Source: an uncultured Ferrovum sp.
GTDB taxonomy: Bacteria; Pseudomonadota; Gammaproteobacteria; Burkholderiales; Ferrovaceae
Assembly: GCA_903909215.1 (NCBI GenBank)
Contig: CAIVUX010000018.1
Span: 1 to 64,000 of the forward strand
DNA: 64,000 bases
Reading direction: 5' to 3'
This document shows, one piece after another, positions 50,969 through 56,266 of this stretch. How positions within the stretch are numbered: position 1 is the stretch's first letter; each line of letters begins with the position of its first letter. The position numbers and the translations under genes were made by a program. The notes under the pieces are model-generated. The model saw only the letters and a list, made by a program, of their open reading frames with translations, was not told the DNA's origin and did not search any database.

Positions 50969-52396
50969 ATGGCCAAAAACAGCAAGCCCCATAGAAATCC
51001 CCCATCCAAAACCTGGTCGGGGCGCTTTTCAGTCCCTATCGCACAGTCGGTGAAGGAATATACCGCTTCGGTCACTTTTGACCATGTGTTGGCAGAATTT
51101 GACATTCAGGGCTCGCAGGCGCATGCCCAGATGCTTCATGAAGCCCAGATTATTTCGGCTGCCGACTTGAAGGCCATTCAAAAAGGCCTGTCCACCATTT
51201 TGACGGATATTCGGGCGGGTGATTTTAAGTGGAATTTAGACGACGAGGACGTGCACCTTAATATTGAACGGCATTTAACGGCTTTGGCAGGAGATGCGGG
51301 CAAGCGGCTTCATACGGCGCGCTCGCGCAATGATCAGGTGGCTACCGATATCAGGCTTTATCTGCGTCACCACATAGATCAACTCAACACCTTGCTAGGC
51401 GTCACCCAGTTGGCTTTGCTGAATTTGGCCCAAGCCCATGCGGATACCCCCATGCCGGGCTTTACCCACCTGCAGGTGGCCCAACCCGTCACCTTTGGGC
51501 ATCATCTGCTGGCTTATGTGGAAATGTTTGAACGAGATATTCAGCGCCTAACGGACTGTCGGCACCGGGTCAATCAATTGCCCCTCGGGGCGGCTGCTTT
51601 GGCAGGCACCAGTTATCCCATTGATCGAGCGCGGGTGGCCGAAATATTAGGCTTTGAGGGGCTTTGCCTCAATTCACTGGACGCGGTATCCGACCGTGAC
51701 TTTGCCATTGAGTTTTGTGCTCATGCCGCCCTTATCATGACGCATATTTCACGCTTATCTGAGGAATTGGTGCTCTGGTCCAGTCCGCGTTTTGGTTTTA
51801 TACGCATCGGCGATGCGTTTTGCACCGGCTCGTCCATCATGCCCCAAAAGCGTAATCCGGACGTACCGGAACTGGCGCGGGGCAAAACGGGGCGTGTGAC
51901 CGGCCACCTCATGGGCCTGCTAACCCTCATGAAAGGGCAGCCCTTGGCCTACAACAAAGATAACCAAGAGGATAAGGAGCCCCTTTTCGATACGGTTTCC
52001 ACAGTCAGCCAAACCCTCACCATCTTTGCAGAAATGCTGGGCAGCGTGAGTGCGGATGCCCCCGCCATGCGCCAAGCCGTCATGGAAGGGTTTGCTACCG
52101 CCACAGATTTGGCTGATTACCTGGTCAAGAAAGGGATGCCGTTTCGCGATGCCCATGAAGTAGTGGCCCGTGCCGTACGGGCCGCTGAAGTTGCCGGTTG
52201 CGATTTGCCTAACCTATCGCTCACCACATTAAAGGGCTTTTCAACCCTGATTGATCAAGATGTCTACAGCGTATTAACCATTGAAGGGTCGTTGGCCAGT
52301 CGCGATTGTTGGGGGGGTACGGCACCAAAACGCGTACGCGCCGCCATTAAAGCAGCACGCAAACGCCTTGCGCGTCATTCGCCTGCGGTTAAATAA
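50969..52396 (+). CDS. argH: Argininosuccinate lyase
   Basis: 475 residues from ATG 50969, with AGGA eight bases upstream; an ATG three codons earlier overlaps that site. Fumarase/aspartase fold with [19 protein letters not shown], the catalytic His in GFTHLQ and the signature [12 protein letters not shown]. It releases arginine and fumarate, the last step of arginine synthesis. Sixty bases separate it from the divergent DUF294 gene. Its 3' end overlaps the MarR gene by 22 bp. Confidence 0.97.
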
Positions 52397-52989
52397 CCGC
52401 TCTTAGGCACCTGCTCGCGGCAGATTTTACGAGTCTCGGGGCCTGATAGGCGCTCACCAAACCAAGCACAATGATGGATGCGTTGGCTTTTGCGCTGGCA
52501 ATACACGCAGGTATTGCAAGTGCCAAAAGGAGGGCCGCCATTTTGGTTCTGCATCTCATAGAGGATGGTCCGCAATACCGAAACGCTGTAACGTACCCGG
52601 TTGGCGCTCACCTCGCGCGTAGCCGTCTGCCACAAGCCAGAGGGGTTGGATTCATCCAAAAAGGCCTCGCCCAAAGCACTTAAACGCAGACGCACCACCC
52701 GTCGATCAATTTCATCTTGATAGCGCTCAATAAGGCCGCGGCGGTCTAACAGCAGCAAACTTTGCGATACAGTACCCTTGGTGGTATCCAGGTATTCTGC
52801 TAATGCTTGGGGAGTATTGCTGAAACGATTGACCTGCGCTAAAAACAGCAATGCCTGTATATGCACCGGCTGGAGCCCTTCTTCGCTGCCCACCCGACGA
52901 AATTCAGCCCGCATCAGATTAGCCAAGCGGTCCACTAAGTCCAGTAATACCACAGGGTTTTTAAGCATTCCGAAATAATAGCGAGTCAA
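52375..52989 (-). CDS. MarR-type transcriptional regulator with cysteine-rich C-terminal tail
   Basis: 204 residues. A winged helix-turn-helix (about 35-110) with [32 protein letters not shown] and the [13 protein letters not shown] wing. A C-terminal extension has Cys158, Cys161, Cys164, Cys174 and Cys190 with His172-His173, a pattern that could bind a metal or iron-sulfur cluster. The target is unknown; the structured 269-base spacer upstream, with inverted repeats, is a candidate operator region. A convergent overlap with argH is present. Confidence 0.83.
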
Positions 52990-53125
52990 AACTAATTTGT
53001 CAAAAATTGCAAAATCAGTTTTTTTAGTATTGACACGATACCATCACCCTTCTAGACCCCTGAAAATGGGCCTTTTTTACCTTATTAGCCCCATTTTAAC
53101 CCCCGTCAAGGGCTAAAAATAATAC

Positions 53126-53141
53126 TGTTGTAAATACAACA
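53126..53141. promoter_or_regulatory. Inverted repeat, possible MarR operator
   Basis: TGTTGTA-AA-TACAACA, perfect 7-bp arms with a two-base centre, between the divergent MarR gene and lptM-lysA. Size and symmetry suit a dimeric winged-helix regulator. Two more inverted repeats are nearby: AAAATGGG/CCCATTTT (53063-53070/53090-53097) and an imperfect hairpin at 53146-53178. Confidence 0.4.
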
Positions 53142-53258
53142 ACAGCCTGAAGACCCTTTACTGGTAAGGGTTTGCAGGCAGTAGCTAATATTTTTTTGTG
53201 TTTGTGGCGATAAAACAAGAGAAAACATGCTTATTTACCCTGTGATAGACTGCAAATC

Positions 53259-53453
53259 ATGAAATTTTTAAATTATTTTTCTCTTTTCTTCGCGTGCGCA
53301 CTCTGTGTCGCAGCGTTTTCCGGCTGCGGATTGAAGGGTCCGCTGTTTTTGCCTCCAGCCAGTGCGTCAACACCCGCGCCGGCGTCTAAAACGCCCACCG
53401 CAGTACCCAGCACACCCGCTGAAACCCAACAACCAAGCGCTTCTTCACGATGA
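53259..53453 (+). CDS. lptM: LptM-like small lipoprotein
   Basis: 64 residues. Signal peptide with lipobox FSGC, acylated Cys23, followed by the diagnostic GLKGPLFLP. This is the YifL/LptM family, whose E. coli member assists LptD maturation in the outer membrane. The rest is a Pro/Ser/Thr-rich tail. As in other proteobacteria it precedes lysA and overlaps it by four bases (ATGA). Confidence 0.9.
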   Translation: MKFLNYFSLFFACALCVAAFSGCGLKGPLFLPPASASTPAPASKTPTAVPSTPAETQQPSASSR

Positions 53454-54715
53454 TGCCCGATCATTTTCTGCCTTATGGTGTAACCCGTGAGGACGGCATT
53501 TTGCACGTGGAACAATGCTCGCTGAGCGACTTGGCTCAACAGTTTGGCACGCCTTGCTACGTTTATTCGAAGGCGGCTATCAGCGCGGCCTATACTGAAT
53601 TTGCCAATGCGTTTGCTGGGCAAAACACCCTTATTTGCTACGCCGTAAAGGCCAATGGCAACCTTGGCCTATTGGGGCTACTGTCTAGGCTGGGCGCGGG
53701 TTTCGACATTGTTTCAGGCGGTGAATTGAGGCGTGTTTTGGCTGCCGGTGGCGACCCTCAAAAGATCGTTTTTTCGGGCGTGGGTAAGAGTGCTGCGGAA
53801 ATGAGGCAAGCATTGTCCACGGGCATTCTATGCTTCAACGTAGAGTCTGCCGCTGAGTTGCGCCGCTTATCGCAAGTGGCCTGCAGCATGGGGCTCACTG
53901 CACCCATCTCATTGCGCGTCAACCCTGACGTGGATGCACAAACCCATCCCTACATCGCCACCGGCCTTAAAGACAGCAAATTTGGCATTGCTTACGGCGA
54001 TGCTTTTCCACTCTACCAAGAGGCCGCTGCATTACCAGGCATTGCCATACACGGCATTGATTGCCATATCGGGTCGCAAATTACGGAGCTCTCTCCCTTC
54101 CTTGCCGCACTGGAAAAGGTATTGGCCTTAATAGAGCGTTTAAAGGGCGCTGGGATCACGCTGCAGCATGTGGATATGGGCGGCGGCGTGGGGATTCGCT
54201 ATCGCGATGAAACCCCCTTGAACTTAGCGGAGTATGCCCAGGCCATGCAGGCGTTACTAAAAGGCTTTTCGGGGCGTTTGTTGCTTGAACCTGGGCGCAG
54301 AATTGTCGGCAATGGGGGCCTGTTGCTGACCCGCGTGGAGTATCTCAAATCAGCACCCGAGCGCGAATTTGCCGTAGTGGACGCGGCTATGAATGACCTC
54401 ATTCGCCCAGCGCTCTACCAAGCCTGGCACGAGATCGTTCCCGTGCTGGCGCGGGTTGCGCAAAACCGCATCCTGGATGTGGTGGGGCCGGTGTGTGAGA
54501 GTGGCGACATATTGGGCACTGCGCGCAGCCTAAGCGTTGAGGAAGGCGACTTATTGGCGATTTTGTCAGCAGGTGCCTATGGCTCTTCTATGGGATCTAA
54601 TTACAATGCTCGACCTCGCCCCCCAGAAATTCTGGTTGACGGCCGCGCTGTAACGATCATTCGCCGCGCCGAAAGCTTTGACGATCAGATTCGCAACGAA
54701 ATTTCAGCGCCTTAA
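53450..54715 (+). CDS. lysA: Diaminopimelate decarboxylase
   Basis: 421 residues, fold III PLP enzyme. The PLP lysine lies in YAVKANGN, with HIGSQ, the GGGVG phosphate loop, EPGRRIVGNGG, CESGD and a C-terminal AGAYGSSMGSNYN. It makes lysine from meso-diaminopimelate. Overlaps lptM. dapF, which often follows, is not present. Confidence 0.97.
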   Translation: MMPDHFLPYGVTREDGILHVEQCSLSDLAQQFGTPCYVYSKAAISAAYTEFANAFAGQNTLICYAVKANGNLGLLGLLSRLGAGFDIVSGGELRRVLAAGGDPQKIVFSGVGKSAAEMRQALSTGILCFNVESAAELRRLSQVACSMGLTAPISLRVNPDVDAQTHPYIATGLKDSKFGIAYGDAFPLYQEAAALPGIAIHGIDCHIGSQITELSPFLAALEKVLALIERLKGAGITLQHVDMGGGVGIRYRDETPLNLAEYAQAMQALLKGFSGRLLLEPGRRIVGNGGLLLTRVEYLKSAPEREFAVVDAAMNDLIRPALYQAWHEIVPVLARVAQNRILDVVGPVCESGDILGTARSLSVEEGDLLAILSAGAYGSSMGSNYNARPRPPEILVDGRAVTIIRRAESFDDQIRNEISAP

Positions 54716-54757
54716 GGGTGCACCTCTCAAACTTATCTGAGTTTTTGTAATTTGTGC

Positions 54758-54786
54758 ATATTTAGTATCGTTTCGCTACTAAATAT
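54758..54786. repeat. Inverted repeat downstream of lysA
   Basis: ATATTTAGTA (54758-54767) and TACTAAATAT (54777-54786), a perfect 10-bp pair with a nine-base loop. There is no T run, so it is a weak terminator at best; it could be an RNA end structure or binding site. Nothing else is recognised between lysA and the H1-like gene apart from its ribosome binding site. Confidence 0.55.
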
Positions 54787-55002
54787 TCACCAGTCATTCA
54801 AAATAATCCACAATCCTTTCCAGCAAAAGCGCCGTAGACGAAAGTTCTGAAATAGAATCTAGTCACCAAGAGGCATGCGATGATTTTTTTTACGTTTGCC
54901 GTTTGCGTGGGTTCTATCGGAAGCGATCGATTGCTCCCACCTGGTAGTGCAACACGCACGAAAGAAATGGAACAGCCGATCAATTGAAAAGGAGTTTTAA
55001 CA

Positions 55003-55485
55003 ATGGTAACAGCCAAAAAGAAACCCGCAGCCCGTAAACCGGCCGCAAAGAAGAAAGCAGTCGCACGCAAACCAGCTGCTAAGAAGGTCGCTGCTAAGAA
55101 ACCAGTGGCTCGCAAGACCGTAGCCAAGAAGAAACCAGCTGCTAAGAAGAAAGTAGCCGCTAAGAAGAAACCAGCTGCTAAGAAGAAAGTAGCCGCTAAG
55201 AAGAAACCAGCTGCTAAGAAGAAAGTAGCCGCTAAGAAGAAACCAGCTGCTAAGAAGAAAGTAGCTGCTAAGAAGAAACCAGCTGCTAAGAAAGCAGTTA
55301 AGAAACCAGTAGCAAAGCGTAAACCAGCCGCTAAGAAAGCAGCTGTGAAGCCTGCTGCTAAGCGTAAACCAGCTGCTAAAAAGCCAGCCGCTAAGAAAGC
55401 AGCTGCAAAGCCTGCTAAAAAACGTGCTGCTCCTAAAGCTTCTGCGCCGATCATTTCGGCACCTTTGATCAAGCCAATGTTCTAA
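55003..55485 (+). CDS. Histone H1-like DNA-binding protein (Lys/Ala/Pro-rich)
   Basis: 160 residues, nearly all Lys, Ala, Pro, Val and Arg in AAKKKPAAKKK-type repeats. It resembles the C-terminal tail of eukaryotic histone H1 and the H1-like proteins of betaproteobacteria such as Bordetella BpH1. The only different part is the C-terminus, SAPIISAPLIKPMF. Such proteins bind DNA without sequence preference. AAAGGAGT precedes the ATG. The central 165 bp are tandem 36-bp repeats. A strong terminator follows. Confidence 0.9.
   Translation: MVTAKKKPAARKPAAKKKAVARKPAAKKVAAKKPVARKTVAKKKPAAKKKVAAKKKPAAKKKVAAKKKPAAKKKVAAKKKPAAKKKVAAKKKPAAKKAVKKPVAKRKPAAKKAAVKPAAKRKPAAKKPAAKKAAAKPAKKRAAPKASAPIISAPLIKPMF
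55126..55290 (+). repeat. 36-bp tandem repeat within the H1-like gene
   Basis: Four full 36-bp units starting at 55126, 55162, 55198 and 55234 and a partial fifth to 55290. The first three are identical; the fourth differs at one base. Each encodes KKKPAAKKKVAA. Confidence 0.95.
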
Positions 55486-55498
55486 ATTTGGCCCGATC

Positions 55499-55541
55499 CC
55501 ACCGAACATCGCGTCTTATGGGCACGATGTTCGGTGGTTTT
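55499..55541 (+). terminator. Rho-independent terminator after the H1-like gene
   Basis: CCACCGAACATCG (55499-55511) pairs perfectly over 13 bp with 55525-55537, followed by TTTT. It lies between the H1-like gene and the convergent mtgA. Confidence 0.9.
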
Positions 55542-55564
55542 AATCGCTTACCCCCCCAAAAGCA

Positions 55565-56266
55565 CTATTTTGGAATGGCCACCTGAGTCATTCGGACCTC
55601 TAGGGTGTCTGTTTTTTGCAGTAGTTTTTCACTTTCACCATGGCGATCAAAATAGCGTGGGCTGGGAATCATAGACGCCAAACGTGCCGCTTGTGCCGCT
55701 GTTATCGTTTCTAGGGGTTCATGATAGTAATGTGTGGCGGCAGCCTCACAACCAAACACCCCATCGCCCCATTCAATCACGTTGAGATATACCTCCAGGA
55801 TACGACGCTTACTCCAGGTGGTTTCCAGCATCACTGTAATGATGGCTTCTTGAGCCTTGCGCCATAAGCTGCGTTGACCTGATAAAAATAGGTTTTTAGC
55901 CAGTTGTTGGGTAATGGTAGAGCCCCCCGCCACGGCTTTGCCACGGCGCAAATCTTTATTCAAGGCGATTCTCATCCCCTCCCAGTCAAAACCGGAGTGG
56001 CTAACGAAGGTGGTATCTTCTGCGGCTACCACTGCTCGCTTAAGCCCGTCAGGAATATGCTCGTAGTTCACCCAGGGGTGGGGAAGAATATCGGGGTGCC
56101 CCATGGCCAGACGGGCCTCAGAGCGGATATTCATGAAGGAGGTGCGCTGCGGCTCATGGCTGCGCCACCACAATACTTGGGCCAGAATCCACATCTCCCA
56201 AATTACAAAGAGCAGTAAGATGCTGCCCAACAAGCGTCTTATCCAACGCTTTACTCCTTGGTTCAC
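55565..56266 (-). CDS. mtgA: Monofunctional biosynthetic peptidoglycan transglycosylase
   Basis: 233 residues from GTG 56264-56266, overlapping the aroE stop (GTGA). One N-terminal membrane helix (about 12-34) and a GT51 domain: catalytic Glu83 in AAEDTTFVSHSGFDWEG, GGSTITQQLAKNLFL and the RRILEVYLNVIEWG segment. Polymerises lipid II. aroE-mtgA is a common proteobacterial pair. Confidence 0.95.
   Translation of the reverse strand: MNQGVKRWIRRLLGSILLLFVIWEMWILAQVLWWRSHEPQRTSFMNIRSEARLAMGHPDILPHPWVNYEHIPDGLKRAVVAAEDTTFVSHSGFDWEGMRIALNKDLRRGKAVAGGSTITQQLAKNLFLSGQRSLWRKAQEAIITVMLETTWSKRRILEVYLNVIEWGDGVFGCEAAATHYYHEPLETITAAQAARLASMIPSPRYFDRHGESEKLLQKTDTLEVRMTQVAIPK

Follow-up and report, generated by a model that had tools for sequence, protein, structure and literature searches.

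The locus lies in a window of 64,000 nucleotides, the whole stretch of DNA that was analysed, from an uncultured Ferrovum sp. with a genome of 1.53 Mb. On the minus strand, positions 52375..52968 encode a MarR-type regulator of 197 amino acids. The earlier note had assigned the minus-strand open reading frame 52375-52989 to the MarR family, and the assignment holds: the product passes the Pfam cut-offs for both MarR_2 (37.4 bits against 27; E 2.9e-9) and MarR (25.6 bits against 24.6), its structure model has a mean pLDDT of 91.9, and MarR folds stand on top among the listed Foldseek matches of the full model to the PDB, with a best E of 4.2e-7. A Ferrovaceae MAG is among the close matches, at 84% identity. 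The regulator gene converges on argH, and the two 3′ ends overlap by 22 bp (52375-52396). On the other side lie lptM and lysA, followed at 55003..55485 on the plus strand by a Lys/Ala-rich, histone H1-like (HC2) protein gene, which we propose as a target of the regulator.

Translation had previously been taken to begin at a TTG at 52989. That codon falls inside a degenerate operator copy, and the conserved protein opens at the ATG at 52968. Operator copies lie upstream of this ATG together with a minus-strand promoter (52975..53003), in which TTGACA (52998-53003) is separated by 17 nucleotides from a TATTAT (52975-52980) ending 6 nt before the ATG. On these grounds ATG 52968 is very probably the start and TTG 52989 wrong. 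Among 22 upstream regions, 16 have the −10 element 6 or 7 nt ahead of the ATG, a proximity which suggests that the regulator mRNA is leaderless (region 52968-52980).

The C-terminal tail of the protein contains a four-cysteine module, FGxCx2C-x12-C-x15-C (52405..52527, minus strand), with cysteine codons at 52516-52518, 52507-52509, 52468-52470 and 52420-52422. In the 197-residue protein these are C151, C154, C167 and C183, corresponding to 158, 161, 174 and 190 in the earlier numbering, which is retained below. All four are invariant in 53/53 aligned relatives (54 relatives minus L163), and they account for four of the only nine invariant columns in that alignment. Family-wide, the motif reads FGxCx2C-x(11-21)-C-x15-C, and the x15 interval is kept in 53 of 54 proteins. 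The tail lies outside the Pfam MarR matches, in agreement with the view that it goes beyond a typical MarR protein. It had been described as a five-cysteine tail with two histidines. Cys158, 161, 164, 174 and 190 and His172-173 are indeed all present in the window's protein, but the histidines vary across the family and Cys164 occurs in 13/54 members; the conserved motif is one of four cysteines, and the five-cysteine, CxxCxxC reading was rejected on the frequency of that middle residue.

In a first set of relatives, 30 loci were aligned, and the 23 that carry the tail all have Cys158, 161, 174 and 190 (23/23), with Cys164 and the histidines variable among them; the remaining seven MarR proteins are more distantly related, and one of them, L025, has a looser similar tail. 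We then searched 398 genomes of the phylum with a tail-free profile derived from 25 tail-bearing sequences. In 30 loci retrieved from the top of its hit list, the tail was present in 21/21 scoring at least 80 bits and in 0/9 scoring at most 71 bits, the nearest tail-less locus being L246 at 71 bits. At 80 bits or above, these 30 loci therefore include no protein without the tail. Since the profile was itself built from tail-bearing members, this result means that the sample lacks close relatives without a tail, and it is not an independent discovery. L025 scores 44 bits with this profile, so related tails exist outside the tail-bearing set. Making up four of only nine invariant columns, the four cysteines are conserved beyond what chance would produce.

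Within the regulator promoter sits a palindrome, GTATYGANTCRATAC, which we predict to be the operator recognised by the regulator. A dyad close to it is found in 22 orthologue upstream regions and, in Ferrovaceae, often occurs twice, 48-49 bp apart. The copies at our locus are strandless. Copy 1, GTATTGACACGATAC (53027..53041), has 1 mismatch. Copy 2 (52978..52992) is degenerate, with 3 mismatches; it overlaps the promoter spacer and −10 and covers TTG 52989, and relatives carry better operator copies at this position. Copy 3, GTATCGTTTCGCTAC (54765..54779), has 2 mismatches and follows lysA at a distance of 238 bp from the histone-like gene. The earlier suggestion that the intergenic region next to the regulator could be a target is supported by copies 1 and 2, both of which lie there.

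We scored the best regulator-upstream site in each of 33 histone-linked loci: 20 sites are within 1 mismatch of the palindrome and 29 within 2, leaving four loci beyond the 2-mismatch limit (L164, L163, L165 and L166). A Lys/Ala-rich open reading frame is called in 30 of these loci, the exceptions being L172, L162 and L168, and the site upstream of it has at most 1 mismatch in 20/30 and at most 2 in 27/30, across seven families; L043, L157 and L160 exceed the limit. With 200 permuted palindromes, mean counts were 0.14 or less and the maxima for regulator and histone gene were 4 and 1 at 1 mismatch and 12 and 11 at 2 mismatches, although the operator-bearing loci are related and their counts are not independent trials. 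Specificity at the genome scale is mixed. The complete genome G053 has 4 of its 9 sites within 2 mismatches at the locus, with 1 for the reversed-pattern control; the host genome has 2 of 11 there, and the reversed pattern gives 4. Three AT-rich-looking genomes (G003, G010 and G016) have 41, 34 and 29 sites versus 22, 18 and 20 for the reversed controls. The case for the operator is carried by conservation at the locus, not by the genome count.

A broad conserved regulon was considered and rejected: in 15 regions chosen from among the sites listed, 15 of 18 with at most 2 mismatches fall inside mechanically called open reading frames and 3 are intergenic (L210, in the host genome, L216 and L223), with no recurring gene by eye. 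The L210 site (G000:C50) reads GTATCGACACGACAC. In the accessible excerpts of PMC3999280, TCGATAC occurs in primers only.

Four genomes point to a natural loss of the system. G001, G014, G020 and G025, of genus g2, have no regulator match yet keep lysA followed by a Lys-rich open reading frame, and at these four loci (L204-L207) no operator within 3 mismatches was found in the 1.5 kb to either side. L208 has neither the Lys-rich gene nor the operator site. At L209 (G011), where the contig ends inside lysA, the Lys/Ala-rich gene and a 2-mismatch site are kept and no regulator was found, an absence that may be an assembly gap.

The product of the histone-like gene matches Pfam HC2 at 50.4 bits, above the cut-off of 40, a match whose weight is limited by low-complexity composition, and scores 46.1 bits with NCBIfam hist_H1_lk_Burk, under the cut-off of 80. 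An inferred −10 element, TAGAAT, lies at 54853..54858 on the plus strand, and the centre of operator 3 is 81 bp upstream of it. This interval is largely maintained elsewhere: from operator centre to −10 (TAGAAT or TAAAAT) it measures 81-82 bp in 17 of 30 loci, while in the other 13 the −10 was not found in eight and the distance is 61, 61, 72, 87 and 88 bp in five. Measured instead to a CACCA close to where transcription is inferred to start, it comes to 92-94 bp in 20/30 loci and to 84, 99 and 100 bp in three; in the remaining seven, CACCA is absent from that range, distant, or at an unmeasured distance. Fixed phasing of this kind suggests activation or looping.

These observations bear on the choice of targets, for which lptM-lysA had originally been put forward. 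Because the operator recurs after lysA and is absent from four relatives that lack the regulator, the likely targets are instead the regulator's own gene and that of the histone-like protein, and the placement of copy 3 led us to reject lptM-lysA as the main target. It seems quite unlikely that operator 3 serves lptM-lysA, or is merely auxiliary, and that the histone-like gene is no target at all: operators 1 and 3 do flank lptM-lysA, but operator 3 comes after lysA, not before it, and the near-fixed spacing to the inferred −10 of the histone-like gene persists across diverged sequence. Operator copy 1 may possibly act on lptM, 218 bp downstream. The leader of the histone-like gene (54860-55002) has CACCAAG near the inferred start and, later, CTGGTAGTG/CTTGGTAGTG; Ferrovaceae conserve these elements, which could base-pair. 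RNA folding of the leader gave no clear signal (z from +1.3 to −2.8 for 15 sequences against mononucleotide shuffles), and an Rfam search of 52300-55600 gave no match at E ≤1.

The regulator belongs to a wider subfamily. In a sample of 399 genomes of the order, a full profile detects members in 41 at E ≤1e-20, and in 398 genomes of the phylum it detects them in 21 at E ≤1e-15, the host genome being included in both. In the tree, 32 histone-linked rows fall on one side of a branch with support of 99/98. Among 21 other loci, an operator within 2 mismatches is found near the regulator's own start in 15 and is perfect in 6; none was found there at L049, L182, L185, L187, L191 and L192. Neighbouring genes at the wider loci differ from ours. 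Cytochrome P460 faces the regulator in four loci (L173-L176, of which L173 and L176 were scanned with Pfam), and in five a protein like glutaredoxin or thioredoxin lies beside it (Pfam on two). Neighbours elsewhere include a redoxin in four loci (Pfam on one), a MOSC protein in three (Pfam on one), a protein similar to SPW but scoring below the cut-off in two, and a Rof homologue in three. A secreted family without a Pfam match (two members scanned) was found in seven loci by clustering and in two more by eye. From P460, the glutaredoxin-like proteins and the other neighbours, a redox or nitrosative signal is suggested. Three of the four P460-facing regulators have a variant operator, GCATCGANTCGATGC. 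The genes of the secreted family stand divergently beside the regulators (L177, L180, L181, L183 and L186-L190).

A metal or Fe-S sensor had been derived from the CxxCxxC spacing. That argument fails because the middle cysteine varies, but the strict conservation of four cysteines supports the module, and the tail is probably a metal or Fe-S sensor. The module most likely binds a metal centre, with Fe-S favoured over zinc since the second half of the tail has C-x15-C in place of a zinc-ribbon CxxC knuckle, the cysteine spacing presumably resembles that of HiPIP, and redox-type genes neighbour the wider relatives. The missing knuckle and the redox-type neighbours make a Cys4 zinc site somewhat unlikely, whether it were to serve a structural role or to sense zinc, a reading that would leave the DNA targets unchanged. 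Four cysteines would suit zinc too, and zinc ribbons appear among the weak matches of the 48 tails that remain when six near-duplicates are removed from the 54: DZR_2 matches 5/48, with a best E of 7.2e-4, and HIPIP matches 2/48, with a best E of 0.039, which is no stronger for Fe-S than DZR_2 is for zinc. AdcR-type zinc MarR repressors share with our protein the idea of a metal-responsive MarR regulator, but our protein's score with the NCBIfam model AdcR_fam_Zn_TF, 18.1 bits where the cut-off is 175, places it outside this known zinc family. A thiol switch usually requires one or two cysteines. That the tail is a metal-free thiol-disulphide switch, as in OhrR-type MarR regulators, is very unlikely, since its four invariant cysteines at near-constant spacing look like ligands; glutaredoxin-like or redoxin genes do, however, face some wider relatives, and the accessible part of PMC12506092 attests MarR regulators that act by cysteine oxidation.

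Direct sequence and fold comparisons did not identify the tail. The window's tail has no Pfam match at E ≤1, and no single family matches more than 5/48 tails. A tail profile found nothing reliable among PDB sequences, its best E of 0.22 being to ribosomal L34e. A tail-only model reached a pLDDT of 68.7, with weak Foldseek matches (best of any kind E 1.3; HiPIP 1hlq at E 2.3).

Taken together, the feature is real and well conserved, with its motif and start corrected and its likely targets re-assigned. On the comparative evidence, we consider it rather probable that a four-cysteine MarR regulator with a metal centre, likely Fe-S, binds GTATYGANTCRATAC and controls both itself and the histone-like gene; the metal, the signal and the direction of control are the parts of this model that we infer. 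The protein is a winged-helix regulator of MarR type whose C-terminal four-cysteine module would hold a metal centre, most likely an Fe-S cluster, and it would recognise the palindrome. With one operator overlapping the spacer and −10 of its promoter and another approximately 49 bp further upstream, the regulator gene would be suited to autorepression. The histone H1-like gene would be controlled from a site approximately 93 bp upstream of its inferred transcription start; simple blocking would account for this near-fixed distance less well than contact by an activator or looping to the promoter-proximal sites. If the cluster is changed by a signal such as redox state, oxygen, NO or iron, DNA binding would change with it and, ultimately, so would the amount of a DNA-packing protein. 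Tentatively, and at less than an even chance, we propose more broadly that a widespread, unnamed proteobacterial MarR subfamily detects redox state, O2, NO or iron with a C-terminal [4Fe-4S] module resembling HiPIP and acts through one conserved operator, and that where one branch of the order has coupled it to a histone H1-like protein, redox or iron state directly sets chromosome packing. The locus joins a candidate regulator, operator and sensor conserved over seven families, brings in a four-cysteine module without a clear Pfam name, and adds a variant of MarR regulation whose sensor and operator are both testable.

Known systems resemble this one in part. ChlR is described in the available portions of PMC4500134 and PMC13421787 as a cyanobacterial MarR-type activator with an oxygen-sensitive [4Fe-4S] cluster. 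It shares with the Ferrovaceae regulator the MarR type and Fe-S sensing, which is only proposed for the latter; according to the same portions, its cluster cysteines are N-terminal (C18, C25), whereas the conserved cysteines here are C-terminal, and its operator is TTMCC-N3/4-GGWAA rather than the palindrome predicted here. ArnR of Corynebacterium, as presented in the accessible text of PMC12343034, is a [4Fe-4S] winged-helix regulator linked to NO and found almost exclusively in Actinobacteria. Both proteins combine a MarR/ArsR-like winged helix with a C-terminal cysteine-bearing sensor, but the text gives three conserved cysteines for ArnR (179, 193 and 223) and ours has four, arranged as CxxC-C-C. 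On the target side, excerpts of PMC9239181 describe AlgP as a DNA-binding protein with KPAA repeats that polyphosphate granules require to be evenly spaced; AlgP and HC2 proteins are Lys/Ala-rich like the histone-like protein, with the HC2 match above its cut-off. Our literature searches returned no account of a MarR-type regulator for AlgP or HC2 genes, no paper on a MarR subfamily with a four-cysteine tail, and no statement on control of histone H1-like protein genes in these bacteria.

Members of the wider family also occur in 149 plasmid records, mostly from Phaeobacter and Enterobacter, and among the matches listed they are annotated as 'MarR family transcriptional regulator' or 'transcriptional regulator', or are unannotated. 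On the Enterobacter plasmid pENTE01 (L255), a tail-bearing relative faces genes annotated as glutaredoxin, DUF2024 and Rho-binding antiterminator, and a perfect operator lies between the regulator and these facing genes. Some genomes carry the regulator in pairs: G770 has two divergent tail-bearing paralogues, L191 and L192, approximately 39 kb apart, and pairs are also present in G451, G571 and G728.
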